DNA of 64,000 nucleotides. It comes from Rhizobacter sp. OV335. Its GTDB lineage: Bacteria; Pseudomonadota; Gammaproteobacteria; Burkholderiales; Burkholderiaceae_C. The notes below the pieces were generated by a model. The model searched no databases. It saw nothing but the letters and a program-made list of their open reading frames with translations, and had not been told where the DNA came from. Made by a program: the position numbers and the translations under genes. Where the stretch lies: the NCBI RefSeq assembly GCF_900142965.1, contig NZ_FRCQ01000013.1, forward strand, positions 62,001-126,000. Direction: 5' to 3'. Shown piece by piece: positions 1,983-61,616 of this stretch; positions within the stretch are counted from its first letter, which is position 1; each line of letters begins with the position of its first letter.

Positions 1983-4026
1983 GAAGGACAGCGTGAACAA
2001 AGACAAATCATATGGCGCAGCGATGGTGAGGTGGGTGCTGAAGGCGTTGGCGGCCGCCGTGCTCCTGAACGCGATGCCCGCCTGCGCGCAGACCGGCAAC
2101 GACGCGGTGCTCGAAGCCCGCGAGGCGCTGCGCAAGAAAGACCGGGCCCGGCTCGCCGCACTGCGCGACAGCGCGATCGCCGAGCGCAACCCGCTTGCGA
2201 TGTGGATCGACTACTGGGAGATCGGCCAGCGCCTGCAGTTCGTGCAGGCCGACGAGATCGCGGCGTTCTACCAGCGCTGGCGCGGCACCTACGTCGAAGA
2301 CCGGCTGCGCAACGACTGGCTGCTCGAGCTCGGCCGCCGCCGTGATTTCAAGGCGCTGGCCGCCGATTTCCCGAGCTTCCGGATGAACGACGACCGCGAG
2401 GTCTCGTGCTACGCGCTGCTGGCCGATCACCTCGGCGGCAAGGACGTGCGCAGCGCCGCCCGCAGCGCCTGGTTCGCGCAGCGCGAGGCCGACGACGGCT
2501 GCGCGCTGCTGGCCGCCACGCTGTACGACGCGAAGCAGCTCACCGAAGCCGATGCCTGGCGCAAGGCGCGCCTGGCGATCGACGGCAACAAGCCGCGTGC
2601 GGCGCGCCAGGCCGCGCTGATGGTCAACACCCGGTCCGCCAGCGATGTCGACGACCTGGCCGACAACCCGGCGCGCTACCTGACCCGCGCGCTCGGGGGC
2701 CGCCAGGCCAACCAGCTGAACACGCTGGCGCTGATGCGCCTCGCGTCCACCGATCCCGAACTCGCCGCCAACCTGCTGAACGGCAAATGGGAAGCCGCGC
2801 TGCCGCCCGAGCTCGCGGCCTGGGCGTGGGCGGCGGTCGGCAAGCAGGCGGCGCTGAAGCTGCTGCCCGAGGCCTCCGGCTACTTCACGCGGGCCGCGCT
2901 GTTGTCGGCCAAGTCGTCGACGACCATCGACTGGGCCGACGAGACGCTCGCCTGGAAAGCGCGTGCCGCGCTGCGCGCCGGCGAGAACGCGCCGCGCTGG
3001 CAGCAGGTGGTGCAGGCGATCGATGCGATGAACCCGGTGGAGCAGCGCGATGCGACCTGGGTCTACTGGAAGGCGCGCGCGTTGCGGGCGCTGGCCAAGG
3101 AGTCGGCCGAGGGCGACGGGCTGCGGGCGCAGGCGACCGAGATGTTCGAGGGCATCTCGTCGCAGTTCGGCTTCTACGGCATGCTCGCCGCCGAGGAACT
3201 GGGCCGGCCGATCACGCTGCCGGTCGCGCCGCAGCCGCTGACGCAGGACGAGCGCGACGCCGCCGCGCGCCAGCCGGGCCTGGCGCGCGCGCTGACGCTG
3301 GTGTCGATCGGGCTGCGCAGCGAGGGCGTGCGCGAATGGAACTTCACGCTGCGCGGCATGGAAGAGCGCGAGCTGCTCGCCTCGGCGCAGCTCGCCTGCG
3401 ACCGGCACGTCTGGGACCGCTGCGTCAACACCAGCGACCGCACGCGCGGCGAGATCGACATCGCGCAGCGCTATCCGACGCCGTTCCGCGCCGAGGTGAT
3501 GGCGGCGTCGAAGACGACCGCGGTCGACCCGGCGCTGATCTACGGCGTGATGCGCCAGGAGTCGCGCTTCCAGCCCGACATCCGCTCCAGCGCGAATGCG
3601 TATGGGCTGATGCAGGTGATCCAGCCGACCGCGAAGAACGTCGCCAAGCGCATCGGCATGGCCTACGACCCGGCGCAGATCATGGACGTGCCGACCAACG
3701 TGCAGCTCGGCTCGAGCTACCTGCGGCTGCTGCTCGACGACTTCGGTGGCTCGCAGGTGCTGAGCGCCACCGCCTACAACGCCGGCCCGGGTCGGCCGCG
3801 GCGCTGGCGCGAGGGCCCGAAGCTGGAGCCGGCGATCTGGATCGAGAACATCCCGTTCAACGAGACGCGCGACTACGTGAAGAAGGTGATGGCCAACACC
3901 TTGCTCTACGCGACGCTGCTGAACGACCCGACGGCGCTGCAGACCGCGTCGCTGAAGGCGCGACTGGGCAAGCCGGTCGGCCCGCGCGAGCTGACCGCGC
4001 CGCCCCCCGACACCAACCTGCCGTAA
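1981..4026 (+). CDS. slt: soluble lytic murein transglycosylase
   Basis: A periplasmic enzyme that cleaves the MurNAc-GlcNAc bond of peptidoglycan to give 1,6-anhydromuropeptides. The 681-residue protein has a signal peptide (VRWVLKALAAAVLLNAMPAC, then AQ), a long alpha-superhelical region to about residue 490, and a C-terminal SLT domain. In that domain MRQESRF carries the catalytic Glu at residue 527, followed by ANAYGLMQVIQPTA and ATAYNAGPGR. The start at 1981 is chosen because AAGG lies upstream; a later Met at 2023 would give a shorter n-region and is possible. The NDUFA9-like gene follows after four bases, so they are probably co-transcribed. Confidence 0.92.
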   Translation: MKDSVNKDKSYGAAMVRWVLKALAAAVLLNAMPACAQTGNDAVLEAREALRKKDRARLAALRDSAIAERNPLAMWIDYWEIGQRLQFVQADEIAAFYQRWRGTYVEDRLRNDWLLELGRRRDFKALAADFPSFRMNDDREVSCYALLADHLGGKDVRSAARSAWFAQREADDGCALLAATLYDAKQLTEADAWRKARLAIDGNKPRAARQAALMVNTRSASDVDDLADNPARYLTRALGGRQANQLNTLALMRLASTDPELAANLLNGKWEAALPPELAAWAWAAVGKQAALKLLPEASGYFTRAALLSAKSSTTIDWADETLAWKARAALRAGENAPRWQQVVQAIDAMNPVEQRDATWVYWKARALRALAKESAEGDGLRAQATEMFEGISSQFGFYGMLAAEELGRPITLPVAPQPLTQDERDAAARQPGLARALTLVSIGLRSEGVREWNFTLRGMEERELLASAQLACDRHVWDRCVNTSDRTRGEIDIAQRYPTPFRAEVMAASKTTAVDPALIYGVMRQESRFQPDIRSSANAYGLMQVIQPTAKNVAKRIGMAYDPAQIMDVPTNVQLGSSYLRLLLDDFGGSQVLSATAYNAGPGRPRRWREGPKLEPAIWIENIPFNETRDYVKKVMANTLLYATLLNDPTALQTASLKARLGKPVGPRELTAPPPDTNLP

Positions 4027-4030
4027 TGCC

Positions 4031-4984
4031 ATGGACCTGCTGATCCTCGGCGGCAGCGGTTTTCTCGGCCGCGCCGTGTGTGCCGAACTGATCCAGCGCA
4101 ACGGTGCGGCCGGTGGCCGACTGACCGTCGCGAGCCGGCAGCCGCAGCGCGCGAAGGCGCTGCAGATGCTGCCGACCGTCGAGCTGGTCGGCGCCGACGT
4201 GCACGACGACGTGCAACTCGCGCGCATGGTTGCCGGCCGCAGTGCGGTGATCAACCTGGTCGGCATCCTCCACGGGAGCGAGGCGGATTTCCAGCGCGCC
4301 CATGTCGAGCTGCCGAACCGCATCGCACACGCCTGCCGGCAGGCAGGCGTGCGCCGGCTGGTGCACGTCAGCGCGCTCGGCGCGCAGGCCGGCACCCCGA
4401 GCATGTACCTGCGCTCGAAGGCCGCCGGCGAGGCGGTGCTGCAGCAGTCGGGGCTCGACGTGACGGTGCTGCGCCCGTCGGTGATGTTCGGCGAGGAGGA
4501 TCGGTTCATGAACCTGTTCGCCCGGCTGCAACGCGTGCTGCCGGTGCTGCCGCTGGGCGGGGACGATGCGCGCTTCCAGCCGGTGTGGGTGCAGGACGTG
4601 GCGGCGGCGATCGGGCAGGCATTGACGCGTGGCGCGGCGGCCGCGCGTTCGTACGAGTGCGCCGGCCCGAAGGTCTACACGCTGGAGCAGCTGGCGCGGC
4701 TGGCCGGGCGCTGGTCGGGCCACCCGCGGCCGGTGCTCGCGCTGCCCGACGGCCTGGCGCGGCTGCAGGCCGGGCTGATGGAATGGCTGCCCGGCACGCC
4801 GCTGATGTCGCGCGACAACCTCGATTCGATGAAGGTGCCGAACGTCGCGAACGAAGCGCTGCCAGGGCTCGATGCGCTCGGCGTGCGCCGCACCGGGCTC
4901 GAAGCGGTGGTGCCGGACTACCTCGGCGGCGTCGCCGGGCCGGCGCGGCTCGAAGGCTGGCGGCGGCAGGCCGGGCGCGGTTGA
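4031..4984 (+). CDS. NAD(P)-binding protein, complex I NDUFA9-like
   Basis: A 317-residue atypical short-chain dehydrogenase. The N-terminal Rossmann motif GGSGFLG is at residues 7-13, and a VHVSALGA stretch stands where classical epimerases have the active-site Ser/Tyr region. YLRSKAAGE supplies the YxxxK-like element. Related bacterial proteins are named NDUFA9-family after the mitochondrial complex I accessory subunit and are thought to bind NADPH, but no bacterial reaction is established. It lies four bases after slt and is followed by a GST gene. A MidA/NDUFAF7 homologue lies 3 kb away. Confidence 0.82.
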   Translation: MDLLILGGSGFLGRAVCAELIQRNGAAGGRLTVASRQPQRAKALQMLPTVELVGADVHDDVQLARMVAGRSAVINLVGILHGSEADFQRAHVELPNRIAHACRQAGVRRLVHVSALGAQAGTPSMYLRSKAAGEAVLQQSGLDVTVLRPSVMFGEEDRFMNLFARLQRVLPVLPLGGDDARFQPVWVQDVAAAIGQALTRGAAAARSYECAGPKVYTLEQLARLAGRWSGHPRPVLALPDGLARLQAGLMEWLPGTPLMSRDNLDSMKVPNVANEALPGLDALGVRRTGLEAVVPDYLGGVAGPARLEGWRRQAGRG

Positions 4985-5121
4985 GCGCGCGCGCCGGCAG
5001 CGAATGCGTGCCGGTCATTGATCTCATTCGCAAATCTCATCGGTGACCGGGTCGGCGGCGGCGCGGGGCTCGCCTACGATGCATGGCCCCCTCTGACCGA
5101 CTCGACAACCCGAGATCCTCC

Positions 5122-59654: not shown

Positions 59655-59731
<77 letters not shown>

Positions 59732-59838: not shown

Positions 59839-60945
59839 GTGCCGATCAAGACCCTCCATTGCGCTGCCAGCGGCTTCGAATCCGCATGTGAAGTGAGCCT
59901 GCTGCCGGCTGGCCATCGCTCGCGGCGGCTGCACGGCCACAGCTTCCTCGCGACGCTGCGCGCCGAACTGCCGCCCGGCTGGGCCGCGTTCGAAGGCGGC
60001 GAGGTCGAACGCCTGCGCGCGGACCTCGAATCGCGCACCGCCCAGCTCGACTACCGCCTGCTCAACGACATCGTCGCGCAGCCGACCGACGAGAACCTCG
60101 CGCGCTGGATCCGCTCGCAGCTCGACGCCCCCGGCATCACGCAGCTCGGTATCCAGAGCACCGCGCACGGCGGTGTCGACCTCGATGCCGCCGGCCAGGC
60201 GCACGTCTGGCGCCGCTACCTCTTCCAGGCCGCCCACCAGCTGCCGAACGTGCCGCTCGGCCACAAGTGCGGCCGCATGCATGGCCACGGGTTCGAGGTC
60301 ATCGTGCATGCCAACCAGGACCTCGGCGCACGCGACCTCAGCATCGACTACGACCACCTCGACGACTGCTGGGCGCCGCTGCACCATGAGCTGAACTACG
60401 GCTGCCTGAACGACCTGCCGGGCCTGCAGAACCCGACCAGCGAGCTGATGTCGAGCTGGATCTGGGAGCGCCTGAAGCCCACGCTGCCCGAGCTCTCGTG
60501 GATCACCGTCTACGAAACCGCGTCGTGCGGCGCCAACTTCGACGGCCGCCACCACCGCATCTGGAAAGAGTTCACGCTCGACAGCGCGCTGCAGCTCAAG
60601 CACGCACCCGACGGCAGCCCGCTGCGCCGCATCCACGGCCACACCTACACGCTGCGGCTGCACCTCGCCGCGCCGCTCGACACGCTGATGGGCTGGACGG
60701 TCGATTTCGGCGATGTGAAGACGCTCTTCGATCCGATCTTCAAGGCGCTGGACCACCGGCCGCTGCACGAGATCGATGGCCTCGCCGACTGCGACACCGC
60801 CACGCTCGCCGCGTGGATCCTCCAGCAAGCCCGCGCCGTGCTGCCGATGGTCGACCGCGTCGACCTCTACGAAACGCGCGGCTGCGGCGCGATCGTGATC
60901 GCCGACCAGGCCGAGGCGCAGGCCGGCCTCGCGATCCCGATCTGA
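59839..60945 (+). CDS. QueD-like protein with three T-fold repeats
   Basis: A 368-residue protein carrying three 6-carboxytetrahydropterin synthase-like repeats, against about 120 residues for ordinary QueD. Repeat 1 (about 8-125): HGH at 32-34, but Cys17 replaces the first zinc His and Ser28 the catalytic Cys. Repeat 2 (125-245): intact zinc site (AAHQLP, H148, H150) and Cys144 in KCGRMHGHG, but LNYG where QueD has LDHH. Repeat 3 (245-360): HGH at 266-268, Leu for the first zinc His and Leu262 for Cys, but LDH intact. YET occurs in repeats 2 and 3. The GTG at 59839 has AGGA upstream. It lies 35 bases before queE, so a 7-deazaguanine role is likely. Confidence 0.85.
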   Translation: MPIKTLHCAASGFESACEVSLLPAGHRSRRLHGHSFLATLRAELPPGWAAFEGGEVERLRADLESRTAQLDYRLLNDIVAQPTDENLARWIRSQLDAPGITQLGIQSTAHGGVDLDAAGQAHVWRRYLFQAAHQLPNVPLGHKCGRMHGHGFEVIVHANQDLGARDLSIDYDHLDDCWAPLHHELNYGCLNDLPGLQNPTSELMSSWIWERLKPTLPELSWITVYETASCGANFDGRHHRIWKEFTLDSALQLKHAPDGSPLRRIHGHTYTLRLHLAAPLDTLMGWTVDFGDVKTLFDPIFKALDHRPLHEIDGLADCDTATLAAWILQQARAVLPMVDRVDLYETRGCGAIVIADQAEAQAGLAIPI

Positions 60946-60980: not shown

Positions 60981-61616
60981 ATGACCTACGCGGTCAAGGA
61001 AATCTTCTACACGCTGCAGGGCGAGGGCGCACAGGCCGGCCGCCCCGCGGTGTTCTGCCGCTTCGCCGGCTGCAACCTGTGGTCCGGCCGCGAGCAGGAC
61101 CGCGCGAGCGCCGTCTGCCAGTTCTGCGACACCGACTTCGTCGGCACCAACGGCGTCGGCGGCGGCAAGTTCGACACCGCGCTCGCGCTGGCGCAGGCGG
61201 TCGCGTCGCACTGGCCGGTGCCGCACACGGGCCGGCCGTTCGTCGTCTGCACCGGGGGCGAGCCGCTGCTGCAGCTCGATGACGCGCTGGTCGATGCCTT
61301 CCATGCGCAGGGCTTCGAGATCGCGGTCGAGACCAACGGCACGCAGCCCGCGCCGAAGGGCCTCGACTGGATCTGCGTCAGCCCGAAGGCCGACGCCGAA
61401 CTGGTGTTGACGCACGGCCACGAGCTGAAGCTCGTTTTCCCACAGGCGAAGGCGATGCCCGAGCGCTTCACGTCGCTCCAGTTCGAGCACTTCTTCCTGC
61501 AGCCGATGGACGGCCTCGAGCGCAAGCGCAACACCGAGCAGGCGGTCGCCTACTGCCTGGCGCATCCGCTGTGGCACCTGAGCGTGCAGACGCACAAGTA
61601 CATCGGCATCGCCTGA
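60981..61616 (+). CDS. queE: 7-carboxy-7-deazaguanine synthase
   Basis: A radical-SAM enzyme that contracts 6-carboxytetrahydropterin to 7-carboxy-7-deazaguanine, the QueD product being its substrate. The 211-residue protein begins TYAVKEIFYTLQGEGAQAGR. Its cluster motif is C-N-L-W then eleven residues to CQFC, that is CX14CX2C, as in the Burkholderia multivorans enzyme, not the usual CX3CX2C. CTGGEPLLQ and VETNGTQPAP bind SAM and substrate. AAGGA precedes the ATG. queC, queF and tgt are not in this window. Confidence 0.95.
   Translation: MTYAVKEIFYTLQGEGAQAGRPAVFCRFAGCNLWSGREQDRASAVCQFCDTDFVGTNGVGGGKFDTALALAQAVASHWPVPHTGRPFVVCTGGEPLLQLDDALVDAFHAQGFEIAVETNGTQPAPKGLDWICVSPKADAELVLTHGHELKLVFPQAKAMPERFTSLQFEHFFLQPMDGLERKRNTEQAVAYCLAHPLWHLSVQTHKYIGIA

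Follow-up and report, generated by a model that had tools for sequence, protein, structure and literature searches.

The window analyzed here, a 64,000-nucleotide stretch of the genome of Rhizobacter sp. OV335, contains one open frame whose 368-aa product resembles QueD, a tRNA-modification enzyme of queuosine synthesis, in three successive repeats. How could such a chain form a working active site, when the residues that a single QueD carries are divided among its repeats? In the reading that we favor, with a probability of roughly 0.78, the protein is a trimodular QueD, probably a covalent pseudo-trimer in which one composite site is assembled from repeats 2 and 3 and repeat 1 is catalytically incomplete.

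The gene and its surroundings

The trimodular queD gene is located directly 5' of a putative queE on the same strand (Table 1). The latter was named by sequence recognition and by its recurrent neighborhood, and in the open reading frame (ORF) list of the window this frame is given a start further upstream. Rfam at the gathering threshold detected only tRNA in the whole window and no riboswitch upstream of the trimodular queD. A Pfam PTPS search of the strain's genome listed no second match, leaving the three-repeat gene as the only locus found. The genome also has QueC, QueF (elsewhere, on C36), TGT, and QueA. A chance or broken gene was considered and rejected because full-length triple homologs are common and strongly constrained.

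Table 1. Features of the trimodular queD locus (positions in the window)
Feature	Position	Strand	Description and basis
tRNA-Met (context only)	59655..59731	+	Upstream of trimodular queD; tRNA/Rfam annotation
Trimodular queD gene	59839..60945	+	Open frame, 368 aa, GTG start, stop included; ORF list, translation, Pfam, NCBIfam
Repeat 1, residues 1-119	59839..60195	+	T-fold; Pfam (25.3 bits), predicted fold, alignment
H32-G33-H34, repeat 1	59932..59940	+	Alignment
Repeat 2, residues 120-236	60196..60546	+	Pfam, predicted fold, alignment, conservation
C144-G-R-M-H-G-H150, repeat 2	60268..60288	+	CxxxHGH signature of QueD; translation, signature as described in PMC5041015
N186-Y187, repeat 2	60394..60399	+	Place of the catalytic Asp-His; alignment with E. 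coli QueD
Repeat 3, residues 237-353	60547..60897	+	Pfam, predicted fold, alignment, conservation
D305-H306, repeat 3	60751..60756	+	Invariant Asp-His, 132/132 homologs
queE (putative)	60981..61616	+	Next pathway gene, 211 aa, stop included; ORF read

Three T-folds in one QueD-like chain

The Pfam PTPS family matched three stretches of the protein, and no other Pfam family did, including the QueF profile (PF14489). In the search of the strain's own genome, repeats 2, 3, and 1 scored 83.8, 71.7, and 25.3 bits, respectively, against a cut-off of 22.4. The NCBIfam equivalog for QueD (TIGR03367) reached 142 bits (cut-off, 89.25) over three stretches, while the broader NCBIfam model TIGR00039 remained under its cut-off (105 versus 125.5 bits), which counts against our reading.

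The AlphaFold2 model of the monomer, computed from an alignment of 80 sequences, was confident (mean pLDDT, 92.3; pTM, 0.90) and predicts three beta-beta-alpha-alpha-beta-beta units, with 4-residue linkers between the listed strands. Three Pfam matches over the cut-off and three predicted T-fold units thus uphold the proposal of the sequence-only reading that three repeats lie in one QueD-like chain. That repeats 1 and 3 are T-folds, a point on which that reading had agreed beforehand to stand or fall, is borne out by both lines of evidence. In a fold search of the PDB, rows 1 to 18 were QueD chains from E. coli and P. aeruginosa (target TM score, 0.87 to 0.94; identity, 36 to 42%), followed by PTPS chains and then, weakly, by urate oxidase and GTP cyclohydrolase IB. 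The last two share the T-fold but have longer chains and another chemistry (TM score by query, 0.17 to 0.33; identity, 6 to 11%).

The product is probably the queuosine-pathway enzyme 6-carboxy-5,6,7,8-tetrahydropterin synthase, which would convert dihydroneopterin triphosphate to 6-carboxytetrahydropterin; PMC13329287 describes the latter compound as the product of QueD. The PTPS family has several functions, and PMC5041015 describes CxxxHGH as the signature of QueD, CxxxxxHGH as that of PTPS-II, and ExxHGH as that of PTPS-III. An enzyme of the PTPS-II or PTPS-III type in place of QueD is nevertheless extremely improbable: repeat 2 reads HKCGRMHGH (i.e., CxxxHGH), CxxxxxHGH and ExxHGH are absent, the QueD equivalog is over its cut-off, queC and queE form the neighborhood, and no PTPS locus other than this gene was found in the genome. 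PTPS-II from rat and human shares the T-fold and zinc triad with the window protein and differs in its CxxxxxHGH, in its single T-fold per chain, and in making 6-pyruvoyl-tetrahydropterin.

Active-site residues divided between repeats 2 and 3

Each repeat was aligned with E. coli QueD at the places H16/C27/H31/H33/D70/H71/E86/E110, which we take to comprise the zinc His, the catalytic Cys, the Asp-His, and the Glu residues. In the same order, the equivalents are C17/S28/H32/H34/D71/Y72/E85/S107 in repeat 1, H133/C144/H148/H150/N186/Y187/E202/E226 in repeat 2, and L251/L262/H266/H268/D305/H306/A321/E345 in repeat 3. The chain therefore has the full set of zinc triad, Cys, Asp-His, and Glu places, distributed over repeats 2 and 3. 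Repeat 2 has the three His residues that would bind zinc (H133, H148, and H150) as well as Cys144, with Asn-Tyr in place of Asp-His; repeat 3 retains D305-H306 and has Leu in place of one zinc His (L251) and of the Cys (L262). The sequence-only reading had described both repeats in these terms, and all of its residue statements hold for the window protein. The alignment adds that the equivalent of Glu110 is missing from repeat 1 (S107) and that of Glu86 from repeat 3 (Ala321).

Conservation of the split

We examined the split in two sets of homologs. The first set consisted of 55 distinct full-length triple proteins found without motif patterns; the wider set comprised 132 distinct triple proteins (i.e., the first set and 79 of 80 named loci). 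The named loci were found with patterns that cover places 142 to 149 and the linker between repeats 2 and 3, so that these places are partly conditioned in that part of the data, while H133, H150, E202, E226, D305, and H306 are not conditioned by the patterns. H133, H142, C144, H148, H150, E202, E226, D305, and H306 were each present in 55/55 proteins of the first set and 132/132 of the wider set. Repeat 3 also retained D289, K294, and P299 (E. coli D54, K59, and P64) in all 132 proteins; the K59 place has drifted in repeat 2 (D175 in the window protein).

The Asp-His place of repeat 2 drifts. Residue 186 was His in 49, Asn in 46, Asp in 33, Gln in 3, and Glu in 1 of the 132 proteins; residue 187 was His in 70 and Tyr in 41, with the rest spread over at most 10 other residue types. 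Both Asp and His occurred at this place in 29/132 proteins, where repeat 2 alone therefore carries all eight residues, and this counts against a composite site. The loss seen in the window protein is thus tolerated but not universal. The first zinc His was missing from repeats 1 and 3 in 132/132 proteins, Cys occurred at the catalytic place in 0/132 (repeat 3) and 8/132 (repeat 1), and a second complete zinc/Cys side was found in none of the 132 homologs.

Repeat 1 is the least conserved (mean pairwise identity over the 132 proteins, 0.46; repeat 3, 0.56; repeat 2, 0.62). The sequence-only reading had placed Cys17 at a zinc-ligand position and noted the absence of the catalytic Cys from this repeat. 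Cys17 is indeed at the place of the first zinc His, with S28 at the catalytic place, but its position varies among the homologs (Arg, 77; Cys, 49; other or gap, 6; n = 132). Cys17 as a special zinc ligand was discarded because the position is mostly Arg. Although repeat 1 changes fastest, the His residues of its HGH are invariant, and Arg or Cys occupies position 17 in nearly all homologs.

The invariance of H32 and H34 (132/132) has no explanation under our preferred reading and counts against it; we know of no role for H32-G33-H34. Along with D71 (114/132) and Y72 (102/132), and with the invariant D305-H306, it would accord with the opposite handedness, in which D71-Y72 of repeat 1 would lie opposite the zinc site of repeat 2, and the HGH of repeat 1 opposite the Asp-His of repeat 3; the working site would then have no His or use Tyr. 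We consider this arrangement very unlikely. It would leave the complete zinc/Cys/Glu side without a His, although H71 is present in 16/16 single-domain relatives, and would set the invariant Asp-His opposite a side that has neither the first zinc His nor Glu110. Mean-field direct coupling analysis of the 132 sequences (effective number, 80.4) gave conflicting signals: pairs 28-186 and 28-187 (rank, 98.7 to 98.8%) side with the pairing of the repeat 1 site and repeat 2, and pair 251-186 (99.3%) sides with that of the repeat 3 site and repeat 2.

A proposed composite site in a probable covalent pseudo-trimer

PTPS is described in PMC7546909 as binding zinc by three His residues, with its active sites between adjacent monomers and with two trimers stacked head to head. 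In our preferred reading, the three T-folds, which are identical subunits of a trimer in ordinary QueD, would have been fused into one chain, and the copies would then have specialized. Repeat 2 would retain the residues that bind zinc, together with the Cys and both conserved Glu residues, and repeat 3 the Asp-His that activates the Cys, presumably by contact of D305-H306 with C144; repeat 1 would retain the fold and complete the ring. Of the site pairs between neighboring subunits, one would have been kept, namely, the zinc/Cys/Glu side of repeat 2 with the Asp-His side of repeat 3, giving one working site per chain. None of the 132 homologs examined has either of the remaining zinc sides complete. 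The pseudo-trimer probably pairs with a second chain, mimicking the usual hexamer.

PTPS-II is described, in the title of a 1995 paper, as having an "intersubunit catalytic triad." In rat PTPS, the Cys and the pterin-anchoring Glu reportedly lie in one chain and the Asp-His in another. The composite site could also be formed in trans, by repeat 2 of one chain and repeat 3 of its partner across the face between two pseudo-trimers; the dimer would then be obligate and a lone chain inactive. The location of PTPS sites between adjacent monomers and the head-to-head trimers (PMC7546909) are in keeping with such an arrangement, and the invariant split between repeats 2 and 3 fits it as well as it fits a site in cis. 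The AlphaFold2 monomer is already confident, but this does not discriminate between cis and trans. Overall, we regard the trans arrangement as possible but doubtful. It is unlikely that a homotrimeric T-fold enzyme has turned into a natural single-chain pseudo-heterotrimer that retains one site of three and functions as a dimer with cross-chain sites (repeat 2 with the partner's repeat 3), in which the invariant HGH and Arg/Cys17 of repeat 1 serve a separate ligand or a regulatory role.

The core of the sequence-only reading is thereby retained, with three T-folds, a split that is invariant in both sets, and repeat 1 as the most diverged copy; its pseudo-trimer geometry is a proposal, and the Cys17 ligand has been dropped from it.

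Relation to known enzymes

The window protein is a trimodular variant of a known enzyme. With QueD/PTPS-I (TIGR03367; E. coli QueD, PDB 4ntm, 4ntk, and 4ntn), it shares the T-fold, CxxxHGH, the zinc His, Glu, and Asp-His places once per chain, and the pathway neighbors queC and queE. Ordinary QueD, however, has one T-fold per chain and forms a homohexamer, whereas the window protein has three fused T-folds, with the residues divided between repeats 2 and 3 and one site per chain expected. We call the trimodular form a variant because the one-T-fold architecture belongs to the known members and not to the family profile. T-fold enzymes are known in one- and two-module forms. Among described systems, bimodular QueF (V. 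cholerae, PDB 3S19; PMC5372742) comes nearest, as an enzyme of the same pathway in which one active site is divided between two fused T-folds; it differs in its reaction and family, in having two modules, and in forming a homodimer without the central tunnel. The trimodular case would join such two-module enzymes (QueF, PMC5372742). We found no description of a fused or triplicated QueD in the literature searched, where our reach into subscription papers was limited.

If our reading is correct, nature has run a complementation experiment in this family: the sequence indicates which QueD/PTPS residues cooperate across subunits, and a half-site needs to be mutated only once per chain rather than in every subunit of a hexamer. 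Evolution would have preserved the halves of a single active site in two different copies, revealing the interdependence of the enzyme's parts. It could then be asked why these lineages retained one site, compared with the three per ring of the ordinary assembly.

Distribution and origin of the trimodular form

The trimodular form is spread over Beta- and Gammaproteobacteria. Of the 399 genomes sampled in the order (own genome included), 59 had a match over nearly the whole query, under 15 family labels (hand count), and the form reaches beyond Burkholderiales. In the other 58 triple-gene genomes, the Pfam PTPS matches listed were all inside triple genes, as judged by eye, except in G050. A class-wide sample had the full-length form in at least 16 of 276 genomes (own genome included); nearly all other matches listed covered repeat 2 only, as would ordinary QueD. 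For the best 80 of 546 related loci, the named hosts include Ideonella, Roseateles, Paucibacter, Rubrivivax, Thiocapsa, Marichromatium, Methylolobus, Candidatus Competibacter, and Thiothrix. Among these 80 loci, triple genes also occurred in metagenome bins labeled Nitrospinaceae (L179) and Magnetococcales (L178), outside Beta- and Gammaproteobacteria, reflecting either lateral transfer or a mis-binned contig.

For a tree of the repeats, 27 representatives were cut into repeats and combined with 16 single domains (97 rows; 121 columns). All copies of repeat 1, of repeat 2, and of repeat 3 each fell on one side of a branch (support, 100/100, 95/91, and 100/99, respectively; the columns are few and the bootstrap is unsettled). 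Since each repeat forms one clade, the triplication looks like a single ancient event.

Within the window's genus, 3 of the 11 genomes searched (G000, G002, and G006) have the triple form, and two others (G007 and G009) encode a single QueD-like protein next to queE. The triple and single forms therefore appear to take the same place.

No triple protein was seen in phages, where 6 of 50,697 phage records matched. A phage origin was discarded; in record H1 (Salmonella houtenae contig), the one with 89% coverage, the match was approximately 350 bases in three pieces, which we read as a single domain aligning with each of the three repeats.

Genome G135 carries a pair of triple genes (L089 and L090), of which one adjoins queE and the second a weak queC match. 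At L082 (G327:C61:7500-16500, ~4000-5000), which adjoins queC and queE, the triple gene appears as two ORFs that match residues 7 to 159 and 216 to 365, leaving the middle of the protein unmatched.

Pathway neighborhood and loss

At 119 triple-gene loci, which are not independent genomes (some genomes occur twice, and short contigs can hide neighbors), queE was present within 3 kb on the same strand at 106, queC at 64, both at 61, and neither at 10. QueC was found in 384 of the 399 genomes of the order, and its presence alone consequently says little.

A replacement enzyme in QueD-free relatives was also considered and rejected. With the window's QueE as the query, no QueE match was found in 11/11 PTPS-free genomes tested (G001, G003, G004, G010, G084, G126, G252, G280, G307, G331, and G397), and this part of the pathway has therefore probably been lost there; QueD and QueE seem to have been lost together. 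The test left out G005, the sixth PTPS-free genome of the same genus. Seven PTPS-free genomes of the same family have QueC; the four of the same genus were outside the QueC search.

Single-domain relatives

The single-domain set consisted of E. coli QueD and 15 proteins picked from 23 single-type loci (n = 16). H16, H31, H33, D70, H71, and E86 were present in 16/16, all in one chain. Places 27 (Cys, 9; Ser, 7) and 110 (Glu, 9; Arg, 7) varied; 7 of the 16 have Ser for the Cys and Arg for Glu110, so that single relatives do not all keep these two residues.

Single QueD-like proteins of the window's genus and family (L012, L015 to L024, and L026) had Ser at the catalytic Cys place in 12/12 cases (SRRIHGH type), and the Glu110 equivalent was missing from all seven that were aligned. 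These Ser-type proteins are possibly a Cys-free QueD, judging from their residues. In 11 of the 12 cases (not found in L022), queE is located at most ~100 bases upstream of the Ser-type gene on the same strand.
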